From Thermoanaerobaculia bacterium (GTDB taxonomy: Bacteria; Acidobacteriota; Thermoanaerobaculia; Multivoradales; JAGPDF01): a stretch of DNA of 64,000 bases. Under the pieces are notes generated by a model. That model saw only the letters and a program-made list of their open reading frames with translations, did not search any database and was not told where the DNA came from. A program made the translations under genes and the position numbers. Below, piece by piece: positions 41,031-59,875 of this stretch (the first letter of the stretch is position 1; every line of letters begins with the position of its first letter). The stretch spans positions 1 through 64,000 of the forward strand of contig JAGPDF010000020.1 in the NCBI GenBank assembly GCA_018057705.1. The letters are read 5' to 3'.

Positions 41031-42581
41031 GTGGTACATCCACCCTGGGATTTCGTCTTCGTCGCCGCACTCGCGGCGGTGGCGACGCTCGCGGGTGTCG
41101 AGCGGGCCGGACTGCGGCGCAGCCGGACCCTGGCGTGGCTGCTCCTCCTGGCCGGGCTGGGCGTCGGATGGATCTACGTCGAAGCCGCCGGGAGGCGTGC
41201 GGCGGACGATCTCGAGCGCCTCATCTCCGCGATGGCTCCGACCTATGCGCGAGAGCTCGAGCGCATGGGCCACGCGAATCTCGACCTCGCGACGCCGCCG
41301 GACGATCCGAGCTACCTGGCGATGATCGAGGCCGAGAAGCGCTGGCTCGCGAGCAATCGGAACGTCAGCGATATCTATACCTTTCGCAGATCGGGCGACG
41401 GCACCACGGTCCTGATGGTCGACTCCGAGACCGACTACGACCACGACGGAATCTTTTCCGGTCCGCGAGAGAGCCGCACCGCGCTGGGCGAGGCCTATCC
41501 GAATCAGATACCGGCCCTGGAGCGGGCGCTCGCGGGCGAGGTCGCCTTCGAGCGCCGGCCGTTCACCGACCGCTGGGGCACCTGGATCTCGAGCTTCACC
41601 CCGATGCGCGACGAGGCCGGACGCGTCGAGGCCGTGCTCGGCGTCGACTACGACGCCTTCCTCTGGATCCGGACGATCGCGCGCCGAAGGCTGGATGCGC
41701 TGGCCGTGCTCGGGGCCGTACTGGCGGTCATTCTGATCGGGCTGATCTCGGTGGCCCGGCTCCGGCGCGCCGCCTCCGAGGCCGAGCTGCGCAGCGCCGA
41801 GCTCGCGGCGGTGAGCGACGCGGCGCTCGCCGCGAGTCGGACGAAGTCGCAGTTCCTGGCCAGCGTGAGCCACGAGCTGCGCACCCCCTTGCACGTTTTC
41901 CTGGGCATGAACGAGCTTCTGCTGAGCTCCGCGCTCGACGAGCGCCAGCGGCGCCACGCCGAGACCGCGCAGCGCTCAGCGGAGGGGCTGCTCGGCATGG
42001 TCGACGATCTGCTCGAATTCGCCCAGCTCGAGGCCGGCAAGGCGCCGATGGAGAGCTCGACCTTTCCGCTCGCCGCGCTTCTGGTCGCCGCCGTCGAGCG
42101 GCATCGCATCGCCGCCGAGCAGAAGCACCTCCGGCTCGAGCTCGAGTCGGCGCTCGACGAAGAGCTGCAGGTTACCGGTGACGACCGCCGCCTGCGGCAG
42201 ATCCTCCGCCATCTGCTGGGCAATGCGGTCAAGTTCACCGACGCGGGCCAAGTGCGGGTTCGGGCCGGACTGAAGCGGACTGCCTACGGGCGCGTCGAGC
42301 TCCTGGTGGAGGTCGAAGACACCGGCATCGGCATCGCGCCCGAGCAGCGCGGCGCGATCTTCCAGCGCTTCAGCCAGCTCGACCCCTCGAACACCCGTCG
42401 CCACGGGGGCACAGGAATCGGCCTCGCCCTCTCGCGCAGCCTCGCCGAGCAGATGGGCGGCGCGATCGACTTCGAATCCGAGCCCCATCGCGGCAGCATT
42501 TTCCGCCTCCGGCTGCCTTTCCGCACGGCCCCGACCTCTTCGGGCGACAGGCCGCATACGCCGGCCCTCATGGCGCAGTGA
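41031..42581 (+). CDS. Membrane sensor histidine kinase
   Basis: 516 residues from GTG. Two TM helices (about 7-45 and 222-245) enclose an extracytoplasmic sensor domain (about 46-220) that contains the motif DSETDYDHDGIF. HisKA domain with H280 in SVSHELRTPLH, then N-box (GNAVKFTD), G1 (EDTGIGI) and G2 (GGTGIGLALS). No receiver domain and no adjacent response regulator gene. Co-transcription with hutH suggests a link to amino-acid availability, but the ligand is unknown. Confidence 0.9.
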   Translation: MVHPPWDFVFVAALAAVATLAGVERAGLRRSRTLAWLLLLAGLGVGWIYVEAAGRRAADDLERLISAMAPTYARELERMGHANLDLATPPDDPSYLAMIEAEKRWLASNRNVSDIYTFRRSGDGTTVLMVDSETDYDHDGIFSGPRESRTALGEAYPNQIPALERALAGEVAFERRPFTDRWGTWISSFTPMRDEAGRVEAVLGVDYDAFLWIRTIARRRLDALAVLGAVLAVILIGLISVARLRRAASEAELRSAELAAVSDAALAASRTKSQFLASVSHELRTPLHVFLGMNELLLSSALDERQRRHAETAQRSAEGLLGMVDDLLEFAQLEAGKAPMESSTFPLAALLVAAVERHRIAAEQKHLRLELESALDEELQVTGDDRRLRQILRHLLGNAVKFTDAGQVRVRAGLKRTAYGRVELLVEVEDTGIGIAPEQRGAIFQRFSQLDPSNTRRHGGTGIGLALSRSLAEQMGGAIDFESEPHRGSIFRLRLPFRTAPTSSGDRPHTPALMAQ

Positions 42582-43770
42582 CGGCGGACCAGACGCTCGC
42601 ATCGCCGGTCTCGAAGTCGTCCTCGAAGATCCAGGTCGCGTCCGGCACGTGCATCACGATGCAGTGGAAGACGCCGGCGAGGCCGACGATGTCGCTGGCA
42701 TCGATGCCGAGGATCGTCTTGCCGGGAAAAGCCTGCTGGTAAATGGAGATGGCCTGCGCATTCTCGGTGAGGAATGGCGGATCGAGGTATTGCGGGACCA
42801 GTACCATCCGGTTGAAGACCACGGCATTCGTGTAGGTGAAGTGGGTACCGGAGGAGTTCCATCCCGGGGTGCGAAAGACGGTGTAACCGCGACCCTCGAG
42901 CTCGGTGACCGCATCCTCGGTGATCTGGTGCGGAGTTGTCGCCGAGGGCGGGTATTCGCCGATGATGACGACCCTGTCGCGCACCGGCAGCATCCACATG
43001 TCGATGTGCTGGGTGGAATCGAAGCTGGTGGGGAAGCCGGGGAAGATCGTCACGTCGAGGTTCTGGTACTGCGCGTAGTAGGTCTGGACATCGAGCTCAC
43101 TCAGGGCGGGGTTCTCGTCGAGGATGAGATCGGTCATGAAGGCGTCGCCGTCCTGGAAGAGGTGGAAGTTGCCGCCGCCGTGAACCAGCGGTATGTCGTA
43201 CTTCGGTAGCGACCAGGCGGTCGCGAAGACTCCTGGCACGGCGTTGTCGAGAGGCCGCGCGGGCCGGTTGTAGGTGTGGTCGACGATGGCGAGCTCGTTG
43301 TTCTCGAGGATGAAGCGCGGCCCGTAGTCGCGGATCCAGACCGAGTTCGAAGCGGCGGTGAGGAACTGCACCTGGGAAAGATCGGCGCCGGCGGAGGTCA
43401 GGGTCGTCGTCGCGCTCGTCTGCTGCGAGCCGTTCGCGACGACGATGGTGACGATTGCCGAGGGATCCAGGGTCGTGATCGCCACGGTTATGTCCGCGAG
43501 CGCGGACTCGAAGCCGCTGGTCCACCGCAAGAGCAGACCTTCATTGTGGGCATACTCTGCAGGGGTAAGGACCGAGCCTTTCGGCGGCGCGAACGGCGCA
43601 GTGGCGATCGGCAGCGGCAGGCCGACCTCCCAGGGGGCGAGGCCCGCAGGCAGGGGAGTCGATGGCGCCGCTGCGGAGGAGTGCTCCAACTCCTGCGCTG
43701 CGGCCGCAGCCGAAAGCCACGATAGACCCAAGGCTGCCGCACAAACCAACCCCTTGTTCGAGCTTTTCAT
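42568..43770 (-). CDS. Secreted peptidyl-arginine/agmatine deiminase-like protein
   Basis: 400 residues with a signal peptide (about 1-24, ending AAAAAQ). Guanidine-modifying fold: RDYGP (substrate Asp), HGGGNF, HIDMWM (His and Asp) and a C-terminal Cys in GVFHCIVMHVP complete the catalytic set of the agmatine deiminase/bacterial PAD family. A signal peptide sets it apart from cytoplasmic AguA and makes it resemble the secreted PPAD of Porphyromonas. The last residues DDFETGDASVWS form a short C-terminal tag after the catalytic domain. It overlaps the sensor kinase 3' end by 14 nt, convergently. Confidence 0.85.
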   Translation of the reverse strand: MKSSNKGLVCAAALGLSWLSAAAAAQELEHSSAAAPSTPLPAGLAPWEVGLPLPIATAPFAPPKGSVLTPAEYAHNEGLLLRWTSGFESALADITVAITTLDPSAIVTIVVANGSQQTSATTTLTSAGADLSQVQFLTAASNSVWIRDYGPRFILENNELAIVDHTYNRPARPLDNAVPGVFATAWSLPKYDIPLVHGGGNFHLFQDGDAFMTDLILDENPALSELDVQTYYAQYQNLDVTIFPGFPTSFDSTQHIDMWMLPVRDRVVIIGEYPPSATTPHQITEDAVTELEGRGYTVFRTPGWNSSGTHFTYTNAVVFNRMVLVPQYLDPPFLTENAQAISIYQQAFPGKTILGIDASDIVGLAGVFHCIVMHVPDATWIFEDDFETGDASVWSAVTAP

Positions 43771-44303: not shown

Positions 44304-46007
<1,704 letters not shown>

Positions 46008-46046
46008 AAAGCGCCGGGTCGAGCGGGCGCCCTTCGACCTTCCACT

Positions 46047-49000
46047 ATGCCCAGTCACTCCGCTGCACGCGCCCGGGCCGCCGCGGTCCGCACCGCCGGC
46101 CGGCCCGATCTCGCGGAGCTCGCCCTGCTCCTCGTGCCAGCGGTCGCGCTCGTCACCGGACGGCCGCTGCTCGCACTGGCTGCGCTCTCGGCCTGGGGGA
46201 TCTGGGCCTGGCGCTGGTCGCCGCCACGTCGCGAGCGCTGGCTCCTGGCCTTCGCCGGCGGCACCGCGGCGCTTCTCCTTTCGGTCGCCGCCGGACAGGA
46301 GCTCCTGCTGGCGAGAGCGGCCCGGCCCTCCGACGCCGTGCTCGAAGGCGAGTACCGGGCCTACTGGGACGAGCTGCGGATCGCGGCGGAACGCGCGGTC
46401 GAGGCGTTGCCCTCTCCACCCTACGACGCCGCCTCCCAACTCGAGGCCTTCGACCGCCTGGGCGTGAGGGCGAAGGCGTCGCGACTGGCGGGACTGACGC
46501 TGCTGCTCCTCGACGCGGACGGGCAACCAGTGGCCTGGGGAGGCGCCGGCCTCCTCCACGATGCCGGTCCGTTCGTCTTCGGCAATCGCTCCGCCGGGAT
46601 CTCGAGCGGGTCCGGGCGCCGGGATGGGCAGTTCCTCCAGAGCGCGGCATCGGCGACGGCAGTGGTCGTCCGCGAGCTTCCGGGTCGTGACGGCAACCCG
46701 TACTTGCTGATCTGCGGCGAGAGCCGCTCCCGCCGCGCTGCGCCGCCGTTGCTCGGCGCCGAGAACGCGAGCCGCCGCCTGGCGCCCTCGCTCGCGGCCG
46801 GTTCCCGGTGGGTCTGGGGTCTCGGCGCTGCACCCTCTCCGGCATCGGCGAGCCCGGAAGAGGCGCTTCCGGACGGCCGGGCCGTGCGCTCGCCCGGCTT
46901 GCCGCCGCTGCTGCTGGCCGCCGAGCCGGAAGACGTCGACCCTGGTCCGGCGAGCCTCGGGGAAGGCGGCAGCGCCTCCGGAAACGCTCGCGCGGCGATG
47001 CTCGAGGGCCTGGGCCTGTTCGGTCTCGCTGCCCTCCGGGGGTTCGCGCTCGCGGTGCTGGCCGGCACGGTGCTGAAGCGGCCGCTGCGGACCTTCGAGG
47101 TCGTGGCGCTGGCGCTCTCCGGTGTCGCCCTGCTGGGCGGGGGACTCGCCGTTCCGGCCGGAGCTCTCCTGCTGCTCGTCGGCGGGCTGGCGCTCGCGAG
47201 TCTGGGGTGGTTCCTGGTCTGGAGTCGAGGTGGCGGATGGGGAGGGGCGGCGCTCCCGACGCTCGCGGCACCGCTCGTCGCCCTGGGGATCACGGCGCTG
47301 GCTCGCTACTGGCCGGGAGAGGCGCTCGATCTCGGCGCCGATTTCGCCCTGGCAGGCGCCTCCGGCGCGGCCCGCCTCGGGCTCGCGGCCGCACTGTTCG
47401 GCATTCTCATCCTGGCGGCGCGCCGGCCGGAGGCGAGCGAGGAGGCGGGCCGGCTCCGCCCGGTCCTGGCCTGGGCGCTCATCGTCTTCGCGGCCGCCGG
47501 GCACGATTACGGGATCTGGGCCCTCTTGCCGCTCCTGGCCGGCACCGCATTCGCGGCGCGTTCCCTGGGTCGGGGGGCGGGGCACACGCCCGCCGGCCTG
47601 ACGGCGCTCCTGCTCCTGGCCGTCGCGATCTCGGCGACCGCCTGGGAGACCGGTCACCGGTTGCGCTCCTTCGCCGCCCTCGCGGGGGAGCTCGAGTCGC
47701 TGACGCCGCCCGAACCGGACCGCAAGGCCGCGTTCGCCGCCGAGCTCGAGGCTTTCTTCGCCGACCTGAACGTCGCCGAAGTCCTGCCGGAGGGGCTCCC
47801 GCGGACGGAGGAGGACGACCTCGCCTACGTGCTTTGGCGAGGATCGCCGCTGGCGCGACTCGATGCGTTCTCGGCGCTGGTCGTCGACCGCCCGGGCACG
47901 CGGCCGTCGAGCTTCGCCTATGGCCTGCCGCTGACCGACGGTCTCGACCTCGACCTGGCGCCGGCCCGCTGGAGCGGTCTCGCGCCGCCGGCCTGGCGGG
48001 ACGAGCGCCTCGAAGGGCGCTATCCGTTGCTTGCGGGCGGCCGTCCCGCCGGGGAGATCCGATTCTGGATGGTGGCGCGCCCGGGCTTCGGGGCGGGCCG
48101 GGCGGCCCCCGGCGACCTGGCCGCGGCTCTCTTGCGCGGCGGTCCGGCGCGGTCCCGGTTCGGCGCTTCTGCGCATCCGGGAAACGACCCGGCGGCGGTG
48201 CTCTATTCGCCCGGCGGCGAGATCCTGGCCTCGCCCTGGCGCGAGGCGACCCCCGCGCTCGAACGGGTGCGTGCCGCGAGCGTCGCCGCGAATCCGCTCG
48301 CTGCCGGCGGCTCCCGCGGTGCCAAGGCCAGGGGCGCAGGGTCGATCGTCACCCCCGAGGGTCGCGCGCGCGTCCTGCTGCGCGAGAGTGGCGGTGCGGC
48401 GGTGGCCCTCTTCGCTCGCGAGCTCGCGCCGCTCGCGGCGCTCGAGCGCGTCGGCGTGCACGCCGCCGGTGCACTCTTCGCGGCGGCCGCGCTCTTCGTC
48501 GCCGGTTTCCTTCTCGCCCTGCCGCGAGCCACGGCACGCGACCTTCTCGCCCGCCTGACGCGCTCGTATGCGAACCGGCTCATCCTGCTCTTCTCGGTTC
48601 TCCTCGTCGTGCCGCTCGTGCTGCTCTACGCCCTTCTGTCGGGCACGCTCGAGAGTCGCGTCGCCCGTGAGCAGCGATCGGCCGCCGAGGCCGCGCTCTC
48701 TTCGGCGCAGCGCGTGCTCGGGGAGTACGTGCTCACCCTGGAGCCGGGCTTCGGCCTCGAGACCGCGATCGACGACGAGATCCTCGTGTGGCTGTCGCGG
48801 GTCATCGGACACGACGTCAGCCTCTATTGGGGGAGCGAAGTCTACGCGTCGAGCAAGCGCGAGCTGTTCGCCGCGGGGTTGCTGCCGCGCCGGATTCCGG
48901 GTGAGGTCTGGCCGCGCATGGCGCTCAGCGGCGAGAACGAGGCCTCGCGCACCGCACGTACCGGCAGCGCCGAGTACGTCGAGCTCTACGCTCCGCTCGC

Positions 49001-50348
49001 CGTGCCCGGCTTCGACTCCCGGCAGACTCGACTGTTCCTGTCCATGCCTCTGCTGGCTCAGCAGGAGGAGGCCACGGCGGAGACCGCCCTCATCCGGCGC
49101 CGGACACTGCTCGCGACGCTCGCGGTCTTCCTGCTGCTCGCGGCGCTCGGTACGCGCCTCGCGCGCGCCTTCACGCGGCCGATCATGGAGCTCGTCGGCG
49201 GTACCCATCGTATCGCCGGTGGCGCCGCCTCGCTCGGCGTGAAGTCCTCCGTGCTCGAGCTCGCGGCGCTCGCCGAGGCGATCGACCGCATGGCGCGCCG
49301 GATCGCCGAAGGGCGCGAGCAGCTGCTGCGGGAGAAGCGGCTGGTCGAAGGCATCATCGAGAATGTCACCTCCGGCGTGGTCTATCTCGACCATACGGGA
49401 CGCGTGCTGCTCGCCAACCGCGTCGCGCGGCAGCTCCTCGAGGTGGCGCCGGGCGATCGCATCGCGGACCGGCTCGGCAGCCGGCCCGAGCTCGCCGAAG
49501 CGCGGCGTTTCGTCAGCGCGCGGCGCGGGGAGCTGGCGCAGTCGACCATCCGGCTCGGCGGCCCGAAAGGCGCCGAGGGCCACGAGCGTGACTGGTCGCT
49601 GGTCTGGGTGCCGCTCGCCGGCGAGAGCGAGCCGGCGGCGCTCTTCGTGGTCGAGGACATTTCGGAGGTGCTGCGGGCGCAGCGTCTCGAAGCCTGGGCG
49701 GCGATGGCGCAGATCATCGCCCACGAGATCAAGAATCCTCTGACTCCGATCCGGCTCTCGACCGAGCATCTGCGGGAAGTCTGGAAGCGGGATCGCGAGC
49801 ACTTCGAGGTCGTCTTCGACCGTTGCACGGAGAACATCCTGCGGCAGGTCGAGGAGTTGCGGGAGATCGCCAGCGAGTTCTCCACCTTCAGTCACATTCC
49901 GGAGTCGGTGCGCGTGCCCGGTGACCTCGCGGCGACCGTGCTGGAGGTCGTCGAATCCTACCGGGCGGCGCCGCCGGCCGGTGTCGAGGTCGAGCTCGCG
50001 GGGGAGCGAGAGAGTCTTCCGGCGCGTTTCGATTCCCGGCTCCTGGGTCGAGCCTTGCGCAACCTCCTGGAGAACGCCGTCCGCGTCTCGGCGGGCGGCG
50101 GCAAGGTCACGATCCTCGCCGCCCGGGTGGGCGACACGGCGGAGATCCGGGTCGCCGACCGCGGCCCCGGCGTACCGCCGGAGATGCTGGCGCGTATCTT
50201 CGAGCCCTACTTTTCGACCCAGGTGGGAGGTACCGGCCTGGGACTGTCGATCGCCCAGCGGGTGGCCGAGGAGCACGGCGGCTCGATCCGGGCGCGCAAC
50301 CTCACTGCGGGCGGGCTCGAAGTCACGATTACAATTCCCCTGCTATGA
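46047..50348 (+). CDS. Very large NtrY-like sensor histidine kinase
   Basis: 1433 residues, about twice the length of NtrY. Two TM helices at about 25-90, an extracytoplasmic stretch (about 95-310), a multi-helix membrane block (about 320-545), a second extracytoplasmic region (about 550-800), two TM helices (about 805-868), a third short sensor (870-1010) and a TM helix before HAMP (about 1020-1090). PAS about 1105-1200, HisKA with H1226 in IIAHEIKNPLTPIR (NtrY-type H-box), HATPase with NLLENAVRVS and GTGLGLSIAQRV. No response regulator adjacent. ATGA overlap with the next lipoprotein gene makes it the head of a five-gene unit. Confidence 0.9.
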   Translation: MPSHSAARARAAAVRTAGRPDLAELALLLVPAVALVTGRPLLALAALSAWGIWAWRWSPPRRERWLLAFAGGTAALLLSVAAGQELLLARAARPSDAVLEGEYRAYWDELRIAAERAVEALPSPPYDAASQLEAFDRLGVRAKASRLAGLTLLLLDADGQPVAWGGAGLLHDAGPFVFGNRSAGISSGSGRRDGQFLQSAASATAVVVRELPGRDGNPYLLICGESRSRRAAPPLLGAENASRRLAPSLAAGSRWVWGLGAAPSPASASPEEALPDGRAVRSPGLPPLLLAAEPEDVDPGPASLGEGGSASGNARAAMLEGLGLFGLAALRGFALAVLAGTVLKRPLRTFEVVALALSGVALLGGGLAVPAGALLLLVGGLALASLGWFLVWSRGGGWGGAALPTLAAPLVALGITALARYWPGEALDLGADFALAGASGAARLGLAAALFGILILAARRPEASEEAGRLRPVLAWALIVFAAAGHDYGIWALLPLLAGTAFAARSLGRGAGHTPAGLTALLLLAVAISATAWETGHRLRSFAALAGELESLTPPEPDRKAAFAAELEAFFADLNVAEVLPEGLPRTEEDDLAYVLWRGSPLARLDAFSALVVDRPGTRPSSFAYGLPLTDGLDLDLAPARWSGLAPPAWRDERLEGRYPLLAGGRPAGEIRFWMVARPGFGAGRAAPGDLAAALLRGGPARSRFGASAHPGNDPAAVLYSPGGEILASPWREATPALERVRAASVAANPLAAGGSRGAKARGAGSIVTPEGRARVLLRESGGAAVALFARELAPLAALERVGVHAAGALFAAAALFVAGFLLALPRATARDLLARLTRSYANRLILLFSVLLVVPLVLLYALLSGTLESRVAREQRSAAEAALSSAQRVLGEYVLTLEPGFGLETAIDDEILVWLSRVIGHDVSLYWGSEVYASSKRELFAAGLLPRRIPGEVWPRMALSGENEASRTARTGSAEYVELYAPLAVPGFDSRQTRLFLSMPLLAQQEEATAETALIRRRTLLATLAVFLLLAALGTRLARAFTRPIMELVGGTHRIAGGAASLGVKSSVLELAALAEAIDRMARRIAEGREQLLREKRLVEGIIENVTSGVVYLDHTGRVLLANRVARQLLEVAPGDRIADRLGSRPELAEARRFVSARRGELAQSTIRLGGPKGAEGHERDWSLVWVPLAGESEPAALFVVEDISEVLRAQRLEAWAAMAQIIAHEIKNPLTPIRLSTEHLREVWKRDREHFEVVFDRCTENILRQVEELREIASEFSTFSHIPESVRVPGDLAATVLEVVESYRAAPPAGVEVELAGERESLPARFDSRLLGRALRNLLENAVRVSAGGGKVTILAARVGDTAEIRVADRGPGVPPEMLARIFEPYFSTQVGGTGLGLSIAQRVAEEHGGSIRARNLTAGGLEVTITIPLL

Positions 50349-51829
50349 CTCCTTCGCGATTCGTCTCGCCACCGTTGCCCGTCCTGCTGTTGCTGGTCGC
50401 CGGTCTTTCCACCGGCTGCTTCGGCGGATCGCGGCCGGAGAAGGCGCGGGGCGCCGCGCTCTGGCTGGCCCGCGACTCCGGCGCGCTCGACGCCATCGCG
50501 CAGAACCGATTGGCCGCCGCCGGGCTGGGCGAGTTCTATCTCGATGCCGCCGAGCTCGAATGGAACGGCAGTCTGAAGCTGCGGCGTTTCGAGCGCCCGG
50601 CGATTCCGCGCCGCACCCCGACGACCCTGGTCGTCTCGGGCCCGTGGCTTCCCGGCGACCGGCCACCGGACGCGCTGGCGACGGCGTTGCTCGCCGAGTT
50701 GAGCGCGCTGCGAATCGAATCCGAGCAGGACGGTCTGCTGGTCGTCGGCTTCCACTTCGAGGTCGATCCCGGCGACTCCGCCGAGAGGCTCGGGAAGACG
50801 CTCGGGCGTCTGCGTTCGATCCTCCCGGACAATCTGTTCCTCTCCGCCGGTCTCGACCGGCACTCCCTGGCGGGCCCGGCCGCCCAGACCCTTGCGGACG
50901 CGGTCGACTACGTGACCTGCATGATCTACGGCCAGCGTCCCGGTGAAGCCGAAGATCCCGCAGCCTGGGATCTCGAGGCAGTCGAAGAGAACTTCCGTCG
51001 TCTCGAGGCGCTGAAACGCCCCTACTTCACCGGGGCCGTGACGCTGGGGACGGCGACCTGGCGGGGCCGGGGCGGCGAGGCCAAGGGCTCTTCGACCGAG
51101 CTTTCTCTAGGCGAGCTGATCCGCGCCCGCAATCTCGAGCTCGCGCCGGGATTCAGCCTGCTGGGAATCGATCGCCAGGTCTGGGAGTTCGTGGCCCGCG
51201 GGCCGGTGCGGGTGGGGCCGTGGAGCCTGGCTGCCGGCGACCGGATCCGGGTGGTGCGCACGGCGACCCCGTTCATCGAGGAGTTCCGCCGCCGGGTCGT
51301 CGCCTGGGAATCACCCCACCGGCTGGGGGATGTCTTCTATCGGCTGCGTCGCGAGAGCGAGGGTCTTTCGCTCTCGGTGGACAATTTCGTCGCCGTACTG
51401 GCGCCGGATGCGGCCGCTCCGGAGCTCGAGCTCGCGATCGAACGCGTCGCGACCGGCGACCGGCGTTGGGTCGTCCGGGTGGGTCTCACGAACCGGAGCT
51501 CGGAGAGCAGCGACCTCGCTTTCTTCGACAGCAACTTCGTGCAGCTGCAGGTTTCGGGAGCGACGATCGGCGATGCCAATCCCGGGGACTTCGAGCGCCT
51601 CGAGCTGCTGGTGGATGGAGAGAAGGGGACGATGCGAGCCTTCCGCGAGGCGAACACCGTGCGCTTCTTCCTGCCGCTGGTGGAAGAGAATCAGACGGCA
51701 GCGAGCGGCGAGATCGAGCTGCGATTGACGCAGCGGGAGCCGACGCTCGCGATCTCCGCGACGTTCCTGCTCGCCGACGGGAGGACGCTCACTCTCGATC
51801 CGCGGGACTGGCAGTTCGAGGAGCGTTGA
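50345..51829 (+). CDS. Lipoprotein with possible DUF3142-like domain
   Basis: 494 residues. Lipobox LSTGC (Cys about 26) after a hydrophobic signal. The first part (about 30-300) alternates beta strands and helices like a TIM barrel with VVGFHFEVDPGDS and VDYVTCMIYGQ, reminiscent of DUF3142; the second part (about 330-494) is beta-rich (IELRLTQREPTLAIS). No sure catalytic residues. It overlaps the kinase by ATGA and the next gene by TTGA, so all three should be made together. The function is not known; the DUF3142 match is tentative. Confidence 0.75.
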   Translation: MTPSRFVSPPLPVLLLLVAGLSTGCFGGSRPEKARGAALWLARDSGALDAIAQNRLAAAGLGEFYLDAAELEWNGSLKLRRFERPAIPRRTPTTLVVSGPWLPGDRPPDALATALLAELSALRIESEQDGLLVVGFHFEVDPGDSAERLGKTLGRLRSILPDNLFLSAGLDRHSLAGPAAQTLADAVDYVTCMIYGQRPGEAEDPAAWDLEAVEENFRRLEALKRPYFTGAVTLGTATWRGRGGEAKGSSTELSLGELIRARNLELAPGFSLLGIDRQVWEFVARGPVRVGPWSLAAGDRIRVVRTATPFIEEFRRRVVAWESPHRLGDVFYRLRRESEGLSLSVDNFVAVLAPDAAAPELELAIERVATGDRRWVVRVGLTNRSSESSDLAFFDSNFVQLQVSGATIGDANPGDFERLELLVDGEKGTMRAFREANTVRFFLPLVEENQTAASGEIELRLTQREPTLAISATFLLADGRTLTLDPRDWQFEER

Positions 51830-52569
51830 GCGCCCGTCGAAGCTCTCTGGGAGCAGTCGCGACGGAGCCCTTCCGGGAGCTGCTCGACGGATTGGACGCC
51901 GTGCTGGTCGCGGGGGTGCGCTCGTTGCTGCTCGTCGGAGCCGGCCTTCTCGCAGGCTGGTGGGTCTACGTTCCGCTGCACGAGCTCCTGCACGCTCTTG
52001 GCTGTTGGCTCGCGGGGGGAGAGGTCACGCGGCTCGAGATCGCGCCGCTCTACGGCGCGCGGTGGCTCGCCCGGATCTTTCCGTTCGTCACCTCCGGTGG
52101 CGAGTACGCCGGGCGCCTCTCCGGCTTCGACACCCACGGCAGCGATTGGGTCTACGCGCTGACCGATCTCGCGCCGTTCGGCCTGACTCTCTTCCCGGGT
52201 TTCTGGTGGCTGCGCCGAGCCGCCAGGGCCGGCCGGCCGATCGCCTTCGGGGCGGCGCTGCCGGCGGCTTTCGGACCCGTCCTGTCGCTGACCGGCGACG
52301 CCTACGAGCTGGGCTCCCTGGCCGTCGTGCACCTTCCTTTCTGGCACGGCCGGCGGGTTCTGGTCGGCGACGACCTGGCTGCGAAGCTCTCGGAGGTGGT
52401 CGGGCGCGGCGAATCCGGCCTGCTCCCGGGACTGATCGCGGCCGCGCTCCTCGGCCTCGTCTGGGCGTTCGCCTGGATGCTCCTCGCGGGGGCCGTCGCG
52501 ACGCGGCTGGGGGAACCGCCGCTGGCGCGGCCGCCTTCGCGCGCCGTCCCCGGGGCGGGATCAGGCTAG
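51826..52569 (+). CDS. Integral membrane protein with HELLH zinc-binding motif
   Basis: 247 residues from TTG 51826 (TTGA overlap). About four TM helices; HELLH at residues 52-56 sits in the first one (VPLHELLHALGCWLAGGEV), a placement reminiscent of M50-type intramembrane proteases and of DUF3267 proteins. A later NPDG-type second motif was not found, so enzymatic activity is uncertain. The following metallopeptidase gene begins one base after its stop. Confidence 0.75.
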   Translation: MSARRSSLGAVATEPFRELLDGLDAVLVAGVRSLLLVGAGLLAGWWVYVPLHELLHALGCWLAGGEVTRLEIAPLYGARWLARIFPFVTSGGEYAGRLSGFDTHGSDWVYALTDLAPFGLTLFPGFWWLRRAARAGRPIAFGAALPAAFGPVLSLTGDAYELGSLAVVHLPFWHGRRVLVGDDLAAKLSEVVGRGESGLLPGLIAAALLGLVWAFAWMLLAGAVATRLGEPPLARPPSRAVPGAGSG

Positions 52570-52570
52570 G

Positions 52571-55321
52571 ATGAAGGGGAGCGGTACGGACACTGGAGTG
52601 GCAAGGATGATGAGTTGCAAGCGGCCGTTAGCGCCCAAGCGCCCTGCGGGCTCCGGGGGAACGACAAGTTCGAGTGTACGCCGGCCGCGAAGGCGGCCGG
52701 ACGCAGCGCGCCGGGCCGCCGGTCTGCTTCTGCCCGTCCTGCCGCTTCTGTCCCTGCTGGGAGCAGGGCTCGCACTGCTCTCCGGCTGCTCCTCCGCGAA
52801 GCCGAATTCGGCGAACATCGGACCCGACCCGCGCCGAGCCCCGGCCTCATCGCACATCGCCACGAAGACCTCCGGGCTCACACCGCGCCCGGGCCTGCTC
52901 GATCTCTACGTCGACGCCGAGCTCGGCAAAGTGATGGTCCGGCTCCCGCCGTCGCAGGGGGAGCGACAGACGATCGGGGAGTACATCTACTACGAAGGCA
53001 TCGTTTCGGGTCTGGGCTCGAATCCGGTCGGGCTCGATCGCGGGCAGGTCGGGGAGCCCCGCATCCTGCGCCTTCGCGAGCTTGGCGGCAAGGTCCTCTT
53101 CGAGCTCGTCAACCTGCGTTTCCGGGCGTTGAGCGACTCGCCCGCGGAGGCGCGGGCCGTCGAGGAGTCGTTCGCGAACTCCGTGATCTGGAGCGCCGAG
53201 GTCGCCGCACGCGATGCCGACGGCAGTCTGCTGATCGACCTCGGACCATTTCTCCTGCGCGACGCGCACGGGGTCGCGGAGCGTCTGGCGGAAAGCGGGC
53301 AGGGCGGATTCGCACTCGACCGCGACAAGAGCGCCATCGACGTCAACCGGTGCCTCGCTTTTCCCGACAATCTCGAGTTCGAGTCGCTGCTCACCTTCAC
53401 GGGTGCGAAACCGGGCGACGAGGTGCGCGGCGTCGCCGTCGAGCCGCGCGCCCTCTCCTTCGTGCAGCACCAGTCGTTCGTGCGCCTGCCCGATGCGGGC
53501 TATTCGCCGCGCGAGTTCGATCCGCGAATGGGCTCTTTCGCGATCTCGTTCCATGACTACGCCGCACCTCTCGCGCGCCCGATCGAGCGGCGGTGGATCG
53601 TCCGTCACCGCCTGCAGGGCGTCGAAGCATCCGCCGACGCCGACCGGCCCTCACCGGTGCGCAAACCGATCGTCTACTACGTGGATCGCGCGGCGCCCGA
53701 GCCGATCCGCAGCGCGCTGCTCGAAGGGGCCGGCTGGTGGGCCCGGGCCTTCGCCGCGGCCGGATTCGAGAACGCCTTCCGGGTCGAGCTGCTGCCGGAG
53801 GGGGCCGATCCTCTCGACCTGCGCTTCAACGTGATCCAGTGGGTGCATCGCGCGACACGCGGCTGGTCGTATGGCGGGGGGGTGGTCGATCCGCGCACCG
53901 GAGAACAGCTCAAGGGGCATGTCACCCTGGGCTCGTTGCGGGTGCGCCAGGACAGGCTGCTCTTCGAGGGGCTCGCGGGCGCCGCGAAGAGCGGCAGCGG
54001 CCTGCCCGACGATCCCGTGGTGCTCGCCCTGGCGCGCATCCGACAGCTCGCTGCGCACGAGGTCGGACACGCGCTCGGCTTTTCCCACAACTTCGCCGCC
54101 AGCAGCTACGGACGAGCCTCGGTGATGGACTATCCCGCGCCGCTGGTGCGCATCGACGGCCAGGGCGAGCTCGACTTCTCGGAGGCCTACGGAGTCGGCG
54201 TCGGTGAGTGGGATCTGCACGCGGTGAACTGGGCCTATCGCGAATTCCCGCCGGGGACTGCGGAGCCGGCCGCCCTCGAAGCGATCGTGCAGTCCGGACT
54301 GCGACGAAACCTCTACTTCCTGACCGACGGCGATGCCCGCCCCGCGGCGGCGGCCAATCCCAGGGCGAGCCTGTGGGACAACGGCGAGGATCCGGTCGCG
54401 GCGCTCGAGCAGACGATGCGGGTGCGGCGCATCGCGCTGGCGCGGTTCGGCGAGGCGAATCTGCGCGTCGGCGAACCGCTGTCGGCGCTCGAAGAGGTGC
54501 TGGTCCCGGTCTATTTTCATCATCGGTTCCAGCTGCAGGCGGCGGCCAAGGTCGTAGGCGGTCTCGACTATCGCTACGCCCTGAACGGCGACTCCACCCC
54601 CAGTGCCCTGGCCCGGGCGGTCTCGCCGGAGCGTCAGCGGCGGGCGATCGCCGTCCTGCTCGAGACCCTCGATCCTGCGGTCCTGGATCTGCCGGACGAG
54701 ACGCTGCGAAGGCTCCTGCCGCGGCCGCACGGCTACGAGGCGAACCGCGAGATGTTCGCCTCGAGGACGGCGCCGGCGTTCGATTCCCTGGGGGCCGCCG
54801 CGACCGCCGCCGACATGACGATCCGCCTCCTGCTGCAGCCGGCACGGGCGGCACGGATGGTCGACTTCCATCGTCGGAACGCGGCGCATCCCGACTTCGA
54901 CGAGCTGCTGACCGCCCTGGTGGACAAGGTCTTTCTCGACAGTGCCCTGTTCGAGCCCCGCCAGGCGGAGATTGCGCGCGCCGCGCAGCGAGTGCTGACC
55001 GACCGCCTGATCGAGCTCTCGGGCAACGGCGCGGCGCCAGCCTGGGTGCGGTCGCGCACCGACGGCGCGCTGGCCGACCTGCTGCAGAGAATGGACCTGC
55101 TCGTGGCCCTCGATCCGGCCGAGAAGGCGCATTTCTCGGCCGTGACCGCCGAGATCGGCAGACATCTGGCGCGCCCGGCCGCTCCCACCGTCGTGACGCG
55201 GCAAGCGGCGCCCGAGCCGCCCGGGGAGCCGATCGGCAGCCTGCAGGAGGATCTCGACTTCGGCGGCGGAGGCCTCGTCTTCGACCAGGCGGGCGATTGC
55301 GACTTCCCGCTGCCGCGCTGA
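52571..55321 (+). CDS. Lipoprotein zinc metallopeptidase (DUF5117/DUF4953 type)
   Basis: 916 residues; ATGs at 52607/52610 would trim 12-13 residues. Arg-rich N-terminus, hydrophobic helix and lipobox LLSGC (Cys about 73). DUF5117-like N-terminal part (about 110-350), then metzincin-like HEVGHALGFSHN (496-507) with a Met-turn candidate SVMDY downstream and a large helical C-terminal domain. All three His plus Glu are present, so it should be active, in the periplasm or at the outer membrane. Fourth gene of the kinase unit, 1 nt after the HELLH gene. Confidence 0.88.
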   Translation: MKGSGTDTGVARMMSCKRPLAPKRPAGSGGTTSSSVRRPRRRPDAARRAAGLLLPVLPLLSLLGAGLALLSGCSSAKPNSANIGPDPRRAPASSHIATKTSGLTPRPGLLDLYVDAELGKVMVRLPPSQGERQTIGEYIYYEGIVSGLGSNPVGLDRGQVGEPRILRLRELGGKVLFELVNLRFRALSDSPAEARAVEESFANSVIWSAEVAARDADGSLLIDLGPFLLRDAHGVAERLAESGQGGFALDRDKSAIDVNRCLAFPDNLEFESLLTFTGAKPGDEVRGVAVEPRALSFVQHQSFVRLPDAGYSPREFDPRMGSFAISFHDYAAPLARPIERRWIVRHRLQGVEASADADRPSPVRKPIVYYVDRAAPEPIRSALLEGAGWWARAFAAAGFENAFRVELLPEGADPLDLRFNVIQWVHRATRGWSYGGGVVDPRTGEQLKGHVTLGSLRVRQDRLLFEGLAGAAKSGSGLPDDPVVLALARIRQLAAHEVGHALGFSHNFAASSYGRASVMDYPAPLVRIDGQGELDFSEAYGVGVGEWDLHAVNWAYREFPPGTAEPAALEAIVQSGLRRNLYFLTDGDARPAAAANPRASLWDNGEDPVAALEQTMRVRRIALARFGEANLRVGEPLSALEEVLVPVYFHHRFQLQAAAKVVGGLDYRYALNGDSTPSALARAVSPERQRRAIAVLLETLDPAVLDLPDETLRRLLPRPHGYEANREMFASRTAPAFDSLGAAATAADMTIRLLLQPARAARMVDFHRRNAAHPDFDELLTALVDKVFLDSALFEPRQAEIARAAQRVLTDRLIELSGNGAAPAWVRSRTDGALADLLQRMDLLVALDPAEKAHFSAVTAEIGRHLARPAAPTVVTRQAAPEPPGEPIGSLQEDLDFGGGGLVFDQAGDCDFPLPR

Positions 55322-55332
55322 CCCTGCCCGGG

Positions 55333-55359
55333 ATGGCTTCGATGGCTTCGATGGCTTCG
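55333..55359 (+). repeat. Three 9-bp repeats at the cyclotransferase start
   Basis: ATGGCTTCG repeated three times without a mismatch, each beginning with an in-frame ATG, so the first nine codons are a Met-Ala-Ser triplet repeat. Confidence 0.9.
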
Positions 55360-56184
55360 ATCGCCGCGCTGGCTGCCGTCCTGGCCTGCGGCTCTCCGGG
55401 CGCCTCCGCGCCCGGCGCCGGCGCCGTGGCCGAAGAGCGCAACGCATCGGGCGCCGCGCCCGACATGGCGACACCCGAAACACGGCTGGAGCTCGAGGTG
55501 ATCGCCACGTACCCGCACGACCCGCGAGCCTTCACCCAGGGTCTCCTCTGGCATCGTGGCCGGCTCTACGAAAGCACCGGCCTGCACGGGCGCTCGTCGC
55601 TGCGCGAGGTCGAACCGTCGACCGGGCGCGTCCTGCGCCGCCTCGAGCTCGACCCGCAACGGTTCGCTGAAGGCCTGGCGCTGGTGGGCGATCGGCTGTT
55701 CCAGCTCACCTATCAGAGCGAATCCGGATGGGTCTGGGACCTCGAGACCTTCACCCTGGCTCGCGAGTTCAAGTATCAGGGAGAGGGTTGGGGTCTGACC
55801 TTCGACGGCACTTCGCTCATCCAGAGCGACGGCAGCGAACGCCTCACCTTCCGTTCTCCGGTCGATTTCTCACCGCAGCGCGAGCTCCTCGTCCTGCGCG
55901 CCGGCAGGCCCCAGTTCTACCTGAACGAGCTCGAGTGGGTGAACGGGGAGATCTGGGCCAACGTCTGGCAGAGCGACGAGATCCTGCGCATCGACCCACA
56001 GACCGGCCGGGTCACCGGCGTGCTCGACGCCTCGCAACTGCTCTCTCCGACGGAGCGCCGCGGAACCGACGTGCTGAACGGCATCGCCTGGGACGCGGAG
56101 CGCGGTCTCTTTCTGCTCACCGGAAAACTCTGGCCACGGCTGTTCGCGGTGAAGATCCGCCCGGCCGGAGTCGCGGCGCACTGA
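55333..56184 (+). CDS. Glutaminyl-peptide cyclotransferase (beta-propeller, plant/bacterial type)
   Basis: 283 residues from ATG 55333 (in-frame ATGs also at 55342 and 55351). Five-bladed propeller of the glutamine cyclotransferase family, which turns N-terminal Gln into pyroglutamate: ATYPHDPRAFTQGLLW, ESTGLHGRSSLREV, FAEGLAL, FYLNELEWVNGEIWANVWQ and LNGIAWD are signature segments. N-terminal signal with a possible weak lipobox (VLAC). Gap of 11 nt after the metallopeptidase gene; last gene of the unit. Extracytoplasmic pyroglutamylation protects exported proteins from aminopeptidases. Confidence 0.9.
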   Translation: MASMASMASIAALAAVLACGSPGASAPGAGAVAEERNASGAAPDMATPETRLELEVIATYPHDPRAFTQGLLWHRGRLYESTGLHGRSSLREVEPSTGRVLRRLELDPQRFAEGLALVGDRLFQLTYQSESGWVWDLETFTLAREFKYQGEGWGLTFDGTSLIQSDGSERLTFRSPVDFSPQRELLVLRAGRPQFYLNELEWVNGEIWANVWQSDEILRIDPQTGRVTGVLDASQLLSPTERRGTDVLNGIAWDAERGLFLLTGKLWPRLFAVKIRPAGVAAH

Positions 56185-56188
56185 GCGA

Positions 56189-57511
56189 TCAGCCTGCGGC
56201 CGTCAGCTCACCTTCGGTCTGCAGCAGGTCGGCCAGGAGACGGATGCGGCGCGACAGCGACGCGAGCTCGACGTGCTCCTCGCGCGTGTGCATGCCCCCG
56301 CCGGCCGGACCGAGTCCGTCGAGGACGGGAATTCGCCCGGGTTGTTCGAGGAAGTTCGGAAACGAGATGCCTCCCCGGTCCTCCTCGCGGAGGAGCTCCC
56401 ATCCGGCTTCGGCAGCCAGGCGCACGGCGAGGTCGGCCTGTGCTCTCGGCAGCCCCGCGGAATCGACCGGCGCAATCGCGGCGTCGCGGGTGAAGACGAG
56501 CTCGACCTGGTGCCGGGCTGCGACCGTGCCCGCCAACGCGGCGAGATCGCGCGCCAGAAGCGCCTCTTCTGCAGAACGGAGAAAACGCGCCTCCCCTTCG
56601 ACCAGGGCGCGATCCGGAACGACATTCAGCTGGTGAGCGGTGCCGAGCAGCGCGCTGCCACCGCTACCTCCTCCCGCTTCGGGCGGCACGCTGTTGCGAA
56701 GCGCTTCGACGAAGCCGCTTTCGCCGCCGACGAAGCGCGCGACGTTGACCGTCGGCCCGCCGTTCGGTCGGGAGAGCGCGGTCGCGAGTTGAATCCACTC
56801 CGCGGCCGCGACGACCGCCGAGCGGCCCTGCCAGTAGGCGAGGCCGGAGTGTGCTGTCCGGCCCTGCGCCCCGAGCTGCCAGTGAAACATCCCTCTCCTG
56901 CCGGTGACCAGGGTCTCTCCGGCGGCCGTAAGCTCGCCCGGTTCGAGCACCCAGAGTGCCCGCGCGGTGGCGCCCGCCGTCGCGACGGCGCGCCGCGAGA
57001 TCGCGCCTCCGACCTCCTCATCGGGAACCAGCACCAGATGCAGGGCCGGGAGGCCTCCGCCACGTCGCGCGACGAGGTCGAGCGCACCCAGGAAGGCGAC
57101 GATGCCGCCCTTCATGTCGATGGCCCCGGTCGCCACCAAGCGACCACCCTCGAGCCGGGGCGTCGAAGCCGGGAGCACGGTGTCGAAATGCCCGATCAGG
57201 AGGATGGGGAGAAGCTCCGACGCGGCCGTCGTCGAGCTGCGTGGCGGGCGCACCGGGGCCGTTGCCGGGCGGAAGGCATCGACGACCGGCAAGGGCCTGC
57301 CTTGCTCGTCGGGCTCGAGCCGGATCGTGACCTCGAGGCCGCGGACACGGAGCTCGACGGCGAGGATCGCCGCCATCCGATGGAGCGCCGGCGGGTCGTC
57401 GCTGGGGGAGCTCGTGGCCGTGAGTCGGACGAGCAGCGCTACAGCCTCCTGGAAGAGCTCCTCCGGCAGACCAGCGGGGACCCGCTCCCGGGACTCCTGC
57501 GACGTGGACAT
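56189..57511 (-). CDS. M20 family peptidase/deacylase (ArgE/DapE/carboxypeptidase G2-like)
   Basis: 440 residues. Metal site: His-Asp in LIGHFDTV, Asp in ATGAIDMKGG, the Glu pair in VPDEEVGG and a C-terminal His in GGMHTREEHVE. The lid domain (about 200-320) contains GRTAHSG and the dimerisation strand. No signal peptide, so cytoplasmic. Substrate may be an N-acylated amino acid or dipeptide; not decidable. A TACACT box lies 6 nt before the ATG. Convergent with the cyclotransferase (4-nt gap), divergent from htrA. Confidence 0.9.
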   Translation of the reverse strand: MSTSQESRERVPAGLPEELFQEAVALLVRLTATSSPSDDPPALHRMAAILAVELRVRGLEVTIRLEPDEQGRPLPVVDAFRPATAPVRPPRSSTTAASELLPILLIGHFDTVLPASTPRLEGGRLVATGAIDMKGGIVAFLGALDLVARRGGGLPALHLVLVPDEEVGGAISRRAVATAGATARALWVLEPGELTAAGETLVTGRRGMFHWQLGAQGRTAHSGLAYWQGRSAVVAAAEWIQLATALSRPNGGPTVNVARFVGGESGFVEALRNSVPPEAGGGSGGSALLGTAHQLNVVPDRALVEGEARFLRSAEEALLARDLAALAGTVAARHQVELVFTRDAAIAPVDSAGLPRAQADLAVRLAAEAGWELLREEDRGGISFPNFLEQPGRIPVLDGLGPAGGGMHTREEHVELASLSRRIRLLADLLQTEGELTAAG

Positions 57512-57640: not shown

Positions 57641-59875
57641 ATGACGAGACTGCGGATGGACATGGCTTCGAAGGACGCGCGCCCGGGTTCCCGCTTCGTG
57701 CGGGCAGGGCGCAGCCTGGCGCGTCGCCTTGCCGGCGGCGCCGGCATGTGGACCGTCGCGACTCTCGCGATCACCGCTGCCACAAGCGCCGCCATGGCCT
57801 CCGCAGCGGCCGCGACGGTGGCCGGAGAGCCGGCGGTGCCGACGGCGCGCGAAGTGGAGAAGGCAGTGGCGGCGGTCTATCCAGCGCTGGTGAACATCTC
57901 GGCAGTGTCGCGCGATTTCGCCGAAGGCCGTGCGATCCGATTTCCGAGCGCCGGCAGTGGCGTCCTGGTGTCGGAGGCCGGGCACGTGCTGACGAACTTC
58001 CATGTCGCCGGCAACAGCACGCGCATTCGCTGCACCCTCACCGACGGCCGCATCTTCGACGCCGACGTCGTCGCGCACGATCCGTTGACCGATCTGTCGG
58101 TGCTCCAGTTGCGTGCCGCGGGTAGAGGTGGCCCGGCGGCCTCCGGGGGTTCCGGTACCAGCCTGTCGGGACTCCGGCCCGCGCGGCTCGCGGTCGACGC
58201 CGCGGTCGCGATCGGCGACCCGGTGCTCGCTCTCGGCAACCCCTTCGCCCTTTCGTCTTCGGTAACGCTCGGCATCGTCTCGAATGCCCACCGCGTGTTC
58301 ACCGATTTCACCGGCTCGGAGCTCTCGGACGTCGAGCTCGAGGGCGGGGAGTCGACCGGGTGGCTGACGCAGTGGATCCAGCACGACGCACTGATCCTGC
58401 CCGGCAACTCGGGCGGGCCGCTGGTGAATCTGGCGGGCGAGGTGATCGGCATCAACGAGCTCGGCGGCGGCGGCATCGGTTTCGCCATTCCGGCGCGGGT
58501 CGCCGCCGATGTCCTGCGACATGCGCTCGCCGACGGCAACGTGCGGCGGTCGTTCCTCGGTTTCGCGGCACTGCCGGTCGCCAAGCTCGGCCGGGAGACC
58601 GGGGCGCTGGTCTCTTCGGTCACCGCCGGCGGACCCGCCGAGGCCGCGGGGCTCGCCGCGGGGGACATCCTTCTCGCCCTCGGCGGCGAAGCGGTCGAGG
58701 CACGGTTCTTCGAGCAGGTTCCGGAGCTCTACCGTCGCGTGGCCAGTCTCCCGATCGGAGCGCCGGTGACGCTGCGTATCGAGCGCCGGGGCAAGGTCCT
58801 CGACCTCCTCGCTACGACGCAAGAGATGGAGCGTCTGCGCGGAGAGCGCGGCGAGGTCCGGGCACTCGGCATCTCGGCAGAGGAGCTCACGGGTCCGCTG
58901 GCCCTGGCGCGAAACCTGCGCGTCCGCGAGGGTGTCATCGTGACCGGTCTGCGGCCGGGGCAGGCGGCCGCGACGGCGCGGCCGCAGGTTCAGGTCGGAG
59001 ACGTGCTCCTGGCCGTGAACGGCCAGCCCGTGGCGACGATCGCTGCTCTCGCGCAGCGGCTCGCCGCCGCCGCCCCGGCCGGCGCCAATGGAGGCAGCGG
59101 CCCGAGCGGCGCCAGCGATTCGAGTGCGAGCCTGGTGCTCAAGCTCCTGCGCTCCGACCAGGAGATCCTCACCCTGGTCCGTCTGCCCGAGTCGCGCAAT
59201 GGGCGGTGGGGAGGCGAGCTGCCGCGCGCCTGGCTGGGCGTCCTCACCCAGGTGCTGAGCCCCGAGCTCGCGACGGCGCTCGGTCGGCCGGGAACCCGTG
59301 GCTATCGTGTCAGCGAGGTCTACTCGTGGACGAACGCCGAGCAGGCCGGACTCGCTGTCGGAGATCTGCTGATCGCGCTCGACGGCGAAGCGTTCAGCGC
59401 TTCGCGCCCCCAGGACGCCGACGACCTGCGGCGCGCCGTCGAAGCCCGGCGTATCGGCGATACGTTGCGGCTCACGGTCGTGCGCGACGGGCGGGAACGC
59501 GAGATCGCTGTCGAGCTCGAGTCGCGCCCGGCGGCCTCCGAGGAGACCCGAAGATCGAAGCAGGAGGAGTTCGAATTTTCGGTGCGCGAGCTGACCCTGC
59601 TGGATCGCAGCGACAAGCATTGGCCGCGCGATCAGGCCGGCGTCCTGGTCACCGACGTCACGAGCGGCGGTTGGGCTCACATGGCGGGCCTGCGCATCGA
59701 CGATCTCATCCTGTCCCTGAATAGCGCCGAAGTCGCCGGCGTCGCCGATTTCGAGCGCCGGGTCGCGGAGTTGAAGGCGGCGCGCGCCCCGTCGGTCGAG
59801 GTTTTCGTTCGCCGTGGCGCCGGCACCCATTTCGTCTTCATCGAGCCCGAGTGGCCGGAAGGAAAGCACAAGTGA
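57641..59875 (+). CDS. HtrA/Deg-type serine protease with four PDZ-like modules
   Basis: 744 residues, longer than DegP (~450). Hydrophobic signal/anchor about 27-65. Chymotrypsin-fold protease (about 70-305) with catalytic H121 (TNFHV), D151 (LTDLSVL) and S257 (GNSGGP). PDZ-like modules follow at about 305-395 (FLGF...AGLAAGDILLALGG), 405-505 (LGISAEEL...VQVGDVLLAVNG), 530-630 (WLGVLTQV...GLAVGDLLIALDG) and 650-740 (VRELTLLD...GLRIDDLILSLNS). GGGAG precedes the ATG. The stop overlaps the next gene's GTG (GTGA). Periplasmic protein quality control. Confidence 0.92.
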   Translation: MTRLRMDMASKDARPGSRFVRAGRSLARRLAGGAGMWTVATLAITAATSAAMASAAAATVAGEPAVPTAREVEKAVAAVYPALVNISAVSRDFAEGRAIRFPSAGSGVLVSEAGHVLTNFHVAGNSTRIRCTLTDGRIFDADVVAHDPLTDLSVLQLRAAGRGGPAASGGSGTSLSGLRPARLAVDAAVAIGDPVLALGNPFALSSSVTLGIVSNAHRVFTDFTGSELSDVELEGGESTGWLTQWIQHDALILPGNSGGPLVNLAGEVIGINELGGGGIGFAIPARVAADVLRHALADGNVRRSFLGFAALPVAKLGRETGALVSSVTAGGPAEAAGLAAGDILLALGGEAVEARFFEQVPELYRRVASLPIGAPVTLRIERRGKVLDLLATTQEMERLRGERGEVRALGISAEELTGPLALARNLRVREGVIVTGLRPGQAAATARPQVQVGDVLLAVNGQPVATIAALAQRLAAAAPAGANGGSGPSGASDSSASLVLKLLRSDQEILTLVRLPESRNGRWGGELPRAWLGVLTQVLSPELATALGRPGTRGYRVSEVYSWTNAEQAGLAVGDLLIALDGEAFSASRPQDADDLRRAVEARRIGDTLRLTVVRDGREREIAVELESRPAASEETRRSKQEEFEFSVRELTLLDRSDKHWPRDQAGVLVTDVTSGGWAHMAGLRIDDLILSLNSAEVAGVADFERRVAELKAARAPSVEVFVRRGAGTHFVFIEPEWPEGKHK

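Follow-up and report, generated by a model that had tools for sequence, protein, structure and literature searches.

In Bacteroidetes, most signal-peptidase-I (SPI) substrates start with glutamine (PMC5837995, PMC10653852), and glutaminyl cyclase stabilises exported proteins (PMC10653852). The window analysed here, a stretch of 64,000 nucleotides from a bacterium of the Thermoanaerobaculia, encodes a plant-type glutaminyl cyclase (QC) that resembles this Q-rule pathway in being exported and probably lipid-anchored, with an intact active site, but the exported proteins of this bacterium mostly have no Gln at position +1, and genome-wide N-terminal capping is not supported. The QC gene is the last of five genes, KIN, LIP, HELLH, ZN and QC. 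KIN shares with sensor kinases of the NtrY/AtoS type a HEIKNPLTPIRLS phospho-acceptor box and the order HAMP-PAS-HisKA-HATPase (the HAMP and PAS matches being weak in Pfam), but it is about twice the size, has three long loops, falls far below the equivalog cut-off of AtoS, its best NCBIfam model (169.5 bits vs 646), and has no cognate regulator in its unit. LIP has the barrel fold of GH18 chitinases and chitinase-like lectins (YKL-39, CHI3L1, IDGF; Z ~20), together with a DUF3142 signal in nine of 19 members, but differs from them in being lipid-anchored, in having an extra C-terminal beta domain and in the lack of conservation of the catalytic-acid position. HELLH, like the site-2 protease (S2P), M50 and DUF3267 membrane zincins, is polytopic with an HExxH motif in a membrane helix; unlike S2P and M50 proteins, it has Pfam scores below the cut-offs, a structural match with a Z score of only 6.6 and a third zinc ligand, GDxxE, that is a proposed one. 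Finally, as in hut (histidine utilisation) operons, hutU, accompanied in relatives by a putative hutH, heads the block, and hutI is present in the genome. Unlike in hut operons, hutI lies elsewhere in the genome, as do three OPT oligopeptide transporter genes, and the block goes on to encode a giant sensor kinase and peptidases that are exported. We know of no classical hut operon with such a kinase and such peptidases. The genes concerned are listed below, with their positions in the window.

39505-41016, plus strand: aromatic amino acid lyase, taken as HutH (PF00221, 2.6e-198)
44304-46007, plus strand: HutU (urocanate hydratase; TIGR01228), 5' of KIN
46047-50348, plus strand: KIN, membrane histidine kinase of 1433 aa (HisKA, HATPase_c)
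50345-51829, plus strand: LIP, lipoprotein, DUF3142-like, with a GH18-type barrel and a C-terminal beta domain
51826-52569, plus strand: HELLH, polytopic membrane protein of 247 aa, putative intramembrane metalloprotease
52571-55321, plus strand: ZN, metzincin lipoprotein of 916 aa (DUF5117 and DUF4953)
55333-56184, plus strand: QC, plant-type (propeller) glutaminyl cyclase (Glu_cyclase_2)
56189-57511, minus strand: M20 peptidase flanking the unit (PF01546, 7.2e-18)
57662-59875, plus strand: DegP-type trypsin and PDZ protein (PF13365 and PDZ)

The five genes lie on the plus strand at the positions claimed in the original prediction, and the gaps that it had given for the order KIN-LIP-HELLH-ZN-QC (-4, -4, +1 and 11 nt) were found as described. 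KIN (end 50348) and LIP (start 50345) share an ATGA overlap, and LIP (end 51829) and HELLH, which has a TTG start at 51826, share a TTGA overlap. HELLH ends at 52569, with possible starts for ZN at 52571 or, alternatively, 52607; ZN ends at 55321, with a possible start for QC at 55333 and alternatives at 55342 and 55351. The starts of ZN and QC are, thus, uncertain, and the alternative starts would widen the HELLH-ZN and ZN-QC gaps. Successive ATGGCTTCG repeats at the 5' end of QC (55333-55356) generate the three in-frame start codons. A weak consensus scan, of little value in this phylum, revealed no promoters or terminators beyond those expected by chance. The five genes may be co-transcribed, and hutU possibly with them, given its 39-nt distance from KIN and their conserved adjacency. 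Long minus-strand ORFs across the unit (e.g. 45657-50276) were set aside as codon-bias artefacts.

The conservation of this arrangement was assessed in 39 further genomes from the order of this bacterium (Thermoanaerobaculia), representing nine families, with block contents taken from gene calls on the relatives' regions and Pfam scans of representatives; all adjacency and linkage counts are lower bounds, because of contig breaks. The N-terminal 1010 aa of KIN was detected in 37 of the 39 relatives. The most strictly conserved neighbour of KIN was hutU, which lay directly upstream of it in all 21 cases in which the two genes shared a contig, in eight of the nine families. HutU, an equivalog by its TIGR01228 score (932.8 bits, cut-off 375) encoded 39 nt from the KIN start, is part of the unit by virtue of this conserved adjacency. 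LIP lay directly downstream of KIN in 19/19 same-contig cases. LIP and HELLH were adjacent in nine of 18 cases, only in families f1 and f7, and HELLH and ZN in five, only in f1. KIN and ZN shared a strand and lay no more than 13 kb apart in 16/35 genomes, and ZN and QC in 23/36. Three families (f3, f4 and f6) had KIN but no LIP; two of them (f3 and f4) also had no HELLH, with ZN directly after KIN in f3. The exact five-gene order was observed only in the window's own family. This adjacency pattern indicates that the full five-gene order is family-specific and that the wider block extends through the order. Beyond the order, both LIP and HELLH are rare, each being found in 6 of 149 genomes sampled phylum-wide, the window's genome included. 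In two f1 genomes (G006 and G007; L099 and L100), ZN directly follows LIP and HELLH was not detected; HELLH has apparently been lost from inside the unit in both. In f5 (L136, L141 and L144), HELLH lies beside three genes that, by eye, appear to encode pyridine-nucleotide transhydrogenase subunits.

Other genes recur in the block. An OPT oligopeptide transporter gene lies directly 5' of QC in 13 relatives (L109, L117, L119, L120, L122, L128-L131, L134, L149, L152 and L153), an S9 prolyl-oligopeptidase is encoded in the block of six relatives, the two f2 genomes have an M28 peptidase gene next to ZN, an M43 peptidase gene is found near ZN in one f8 genome, and alanine dehydrogenase is a frequent downstream neighbour. 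The arrangement is beyond chance, since it is seen again elsewhere in the family and, in pieces, across the other families of the order. The survey therefore bears out the claim that the genes form a conserved unit not unique to this genome. Nor is the unit the closed five-gene system originally envisaged: it is part of a larger block, with histidine-degradation genes at its head, in which the LIP-HELLH-ZN-QC make-up differs between families. The original prediction had left out hutU and had not recognised LIP as a GH18-like barrel protein.

The block might alternatively be a slowly rearranging region in which hutU, KIN, LIP, ZN and QC owe their proximity to descent and serve separate processes. 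In some families, the conserved neighbours include housekeeping genes too, so that order alone is no proof of shared function, and ZN, QC and HELLH are each found apart from KIN in several families, indicating that the block is not obligate. We nevertheless consider this explanation unlikely, given the four-base overlaps and very short gaps, the persistence of hutU-KIN adjacency across families despite a shuffled wider neighbourhood, and the presence, in different families, of different peptidases and a peptide carrier in the block.

Within the window, the putative hutH and hutU are separated by genes for a kinase, a deiminase and ArfB; in several relatives, the putative hutH lies directly 5' of hutU. 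The intervening kinase gene (41031-42581, plus strand; HisKA 2.8e-19), directly 3' of the putative hutH, encodes a second histidine kinase, of ordinary size, a fragment of which is present in a relative from the same genus (L095). Between this gene and hutU, positions 42568-43770 on the minus strand encode a protein resembling Porphyromonas-type peptidyl-arginine/agmatine deiminases (PF04371); its likely signal peptide ends in AAAAA and is followed by QELEH, which makes the protein a rare candidate for Gln at +1. An M13 (neprilysin-type) peptidase gene near the putative hutH (36153-37250, minus strand) makes this region still richer in peptidase genes. On the other side of the unit, the DegP-type gene comes after QC in the window's family, and its end overlaps by 4 nt a gene for a protein with a trypsin-like fold (59872-60807, plus strand); both genes come after QC in several of the family's genomes.

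ZN matched PF16313 (DUF4953, "Met-zincin"; 1.3e-63) and DUF5117 (3.1e-32) in Pfam. It has a lipobox (LLSGC), the zinc motif HEVGHALGFSH at residue 496 (HExxHxxGxxH) and the Met-turn SVMDYP, and the zinc motif and Met-turn were both intact in 23 of 24 alignment rows, the exception being a fragment. Outside the order, the neighbours of ZN displayed no shared theme across phyla. In the literature searched, DUF4953 was not mentioned at all and DUF3142 just once, in a single paper. QC matched PF05096 at 306.6 bits (cut-off 22.3; Glu_cyclase_2, 1.7e-91) and is related to the solved enzymes 3nol, 3mbr and papaya 2faw. Its residues Q69, E113, N198 and K265 correspond to the active-site residues Q24, E69, N155 and K225 of the papaya enzyme (PMC5837995) and are kept in 29-30 of 30 sequences across the order; QC also has a lipobox-like VLAC.

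Capping of exported proteins by QC would predict Gln at +1 in most SPI substrates. Gln was present at +1 in 2/55 predicted SPI substrates in 464 kb of this genome and in 4/58 in the relatives' regions, versus 11/14 in Bacteroidota control loci analysed by the same method, a contrast that is large even though the simple home-made signal-peptide rule is crude and the control small. The difference between 2/55 and 11/14 leaves general N-terminal protection unsupported, and the idea that QC protects exported proteins in general was rejected on this basis. The idea of an envelope proteolysis and protection system thus survives only in part. Its products are indeed exported or located in the membrane, and proteolysis outside the cytoplasm is a sound theme, but protection by N-terminal pyroglutamate is not supported, and the recurring OPT transporters and S9/M28 peptidases of the relatives point instead to nutrient peptide use. 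The same results make it distinctly improbable that the locus serves envelope quality control, with KIN sensing stress, ZN and HELLH clearing damaged proteins and QC capping exported proteins with pyroglutamate: the localisation of every product, the S2P-like signature of HELLH, the DegP-type protein encoded downstream in the window's family and the stabilising role of QC in Bacteroidetes (PMC10653852) are consistent with such a system, but the rarity of Gln at +1 and the identity of the conserved partners (hutU, OPT transporters and S9/M28 peptidases) argue against it.

The HisKA (33.0 bits) and HATPase_c (88.4 bits) matches of KIN both exceeded the Pfam cut-offs. Its hydropathy profile includes about 10 hydrophobic segments, between which the long loops extend over residues ~85-320, 535-800 and 871-1019. 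The phospho-acceptor, H1226, lies inside HEIKNPLTPIRLS, and the phospho-acceptor box AHEIKNPLTPIRLS is near-invariant across the order; we take this H-box to resemble those of NtrY-type kinases of nitrogen regulation, a likeness with no NtrY profile comparison behind it. Outside the genus, identity was 27-45% for the N-terminal part of KIN, versus 50-61%, and the combination of a more variable N-terminal part with a near-invariant H-box is the pattern expected of a sensor. The unit of the window encodes no response regulator. An activator with FHA and sigma54 domains was rejected as the partner of KIN, because its closest match in this genome lies on a different contig and has no receiver domain. 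An FHA-sigma54 activator without a receiver domain (L113:2410-4206) adjoins hutU or KIN in families f4, f5, f7 and f8, and such activators are also found in L108, L109, L114, L116, L117, L123, L126 and L132; this protein is possibly the missing regulator of the block.

LIP has the lipobox LSTGC. A Pfam search with the LIP of the window yielded no match, and the DUF3142 profile matched nine of the 19 members of the LIP alignment (best 6.2e-6), that of the window not among them. PDB sequence searches with LIP, ZN and HELLH gave nothing significant. In an AlphaFold2 model of LIP based on the 19-sequence alignment (pLDDT 89.5), residues 34-356 matched GH18 chitinases, SleL and chitinase-like lectins at the Z score given above (20.9 for SleL, with an rmsd of 3.4 over 280 residues). 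At the strand of the GH18 motif DxxDxDxE, the location of which was inferred from strand order (strand beta-4), LIP proteins mostly have G-x-H-[FL]-[DE]-x-x, with the first Asp replaced by His, and the catalytic-acid position (141) is occupied by D, E, A, P, S, T or V in the 19 members. The barrel fold would fit an active chitinase or cortex-lytic enzyme, but this possibility was rejected because the catalytic acid is not conserved; given the variability of this position, LIP is best seen, on the basis of its model, as a binding protein rather than a hydrolase. Co-evolution of LIP with the N-terminus of KIN was also discarded, the N-terminal identity of KIN being similar with and without LIP.

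In HELLH, the residues H52, E53, H56, G157, D158 and E161 (HExxH and GDxxE) are invariant over 23 sequences, and in the model (pLDDT 95.2) H52, E53 and H56 sit inside helix 31-62. The HELLH of the window scored below the Pfam cut-offs (17.3 bits for PF13398, cut-off 26; 15.6 bits for PF11667, cut-off 27.1). M50B was the commonest Pfam match in the family (17/23), with a best value among relatives of 8.4e-6 (PF13398). A Foldseek search with the model gave nothing significant, and the best re-aligned match was the site-2 protease of M. jannaschii (3b4r; rmsd 4.6 over 137 residues, at the low Z score already mentioned). From its motifs and model, HELLH is plausibly an S2P-like intramembrane metalloprotease. 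A dedicated signalling complex, in which LIP would be the extracytoplasmic ligand-binding subunit of KIN, HELLH would cleave a membrane regulator and ZN and QC would be the outputs, is the least probable of the explanations considered and very unlikely to be correct, since, although KIN-LIP coupling is strict wherever both share a contig and the LIP barrel resembles chitinase-like lectins devoid of catalysis, KIN occurs without LIP in f3, f4 and f6, its N-terminal identity in f3 and f6 is not markedly different, and in most families KIN and HELLH are not linked.

The explanation that we favour, with somewhat more confidence than doubt, is that of a lineage-specific chromosomal locus for the use of extracytoplasmic proteins and peptides, tied to histidine catabolism and to an NtrY/AtoS-like sensor. 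Starting from the observed gene order, families, motifs and conservation, we infer a pathway in which proteins outside the cytoplasm would be degraded by extracytoplasmic peptidases with a lipid anchor, namely ZN here and S9, M28 and other enzymes in relatives. QC would cyclise the N-terminal Gln of the resulting peptides, with the release of ammonia, and the peptides would enter through OPT-type carriers, encoded in the block in relatives and elsewhere in this genome. Amino acids, histidine first, would then be degraded by HutH and HutU. KIN would sense supply at the membrane, with LIP probably binding a ligand or presenting it to KIN, and HELLH, a lineage-specific addition, may clip a membrane substrate. 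The part played by QC in peptide use is the weakest step of this explanation. In line with this explanation, proteinaceous compounds are fermented by Thermoanaerobaculum aquaticum, a relative that has been cultured (PMC4056298).

The unit is real, conserved and underexplored, but consists of known enzyme classes in a plausible catabolic setting. We would give little credence to the bolder proposal of an undescribed membrane sensing system, in which a giant NtrY-like kinase and a catalytically dead GH18-like ligand-binding lipoprotein, with an S2P-like protease in two families, would couple extracytoplasmic peptide supply to proteolysis, Gln cyclisation and histidine catabolism. Three loose ends are of most interest: LIP is strictly paired with KIN, its GH18-like barrel is apparently dead, and QC occurs where there is no Q-rule. 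If the favoured explanation of extracytoplasmic peptide use is correct, a Q-rule is not a prerequisite for an exported glutaminyl cyclase, and the enzyme would need another substrate. The poorly characterised DUF4953/DUF5117 metzincins, DUF3142 barrels and HELLH membrane zincin would acquire a testable role, and this mostly uncultured class of Acidobacteriota would have a candidate peptide-utilisation locus together with its regulator.
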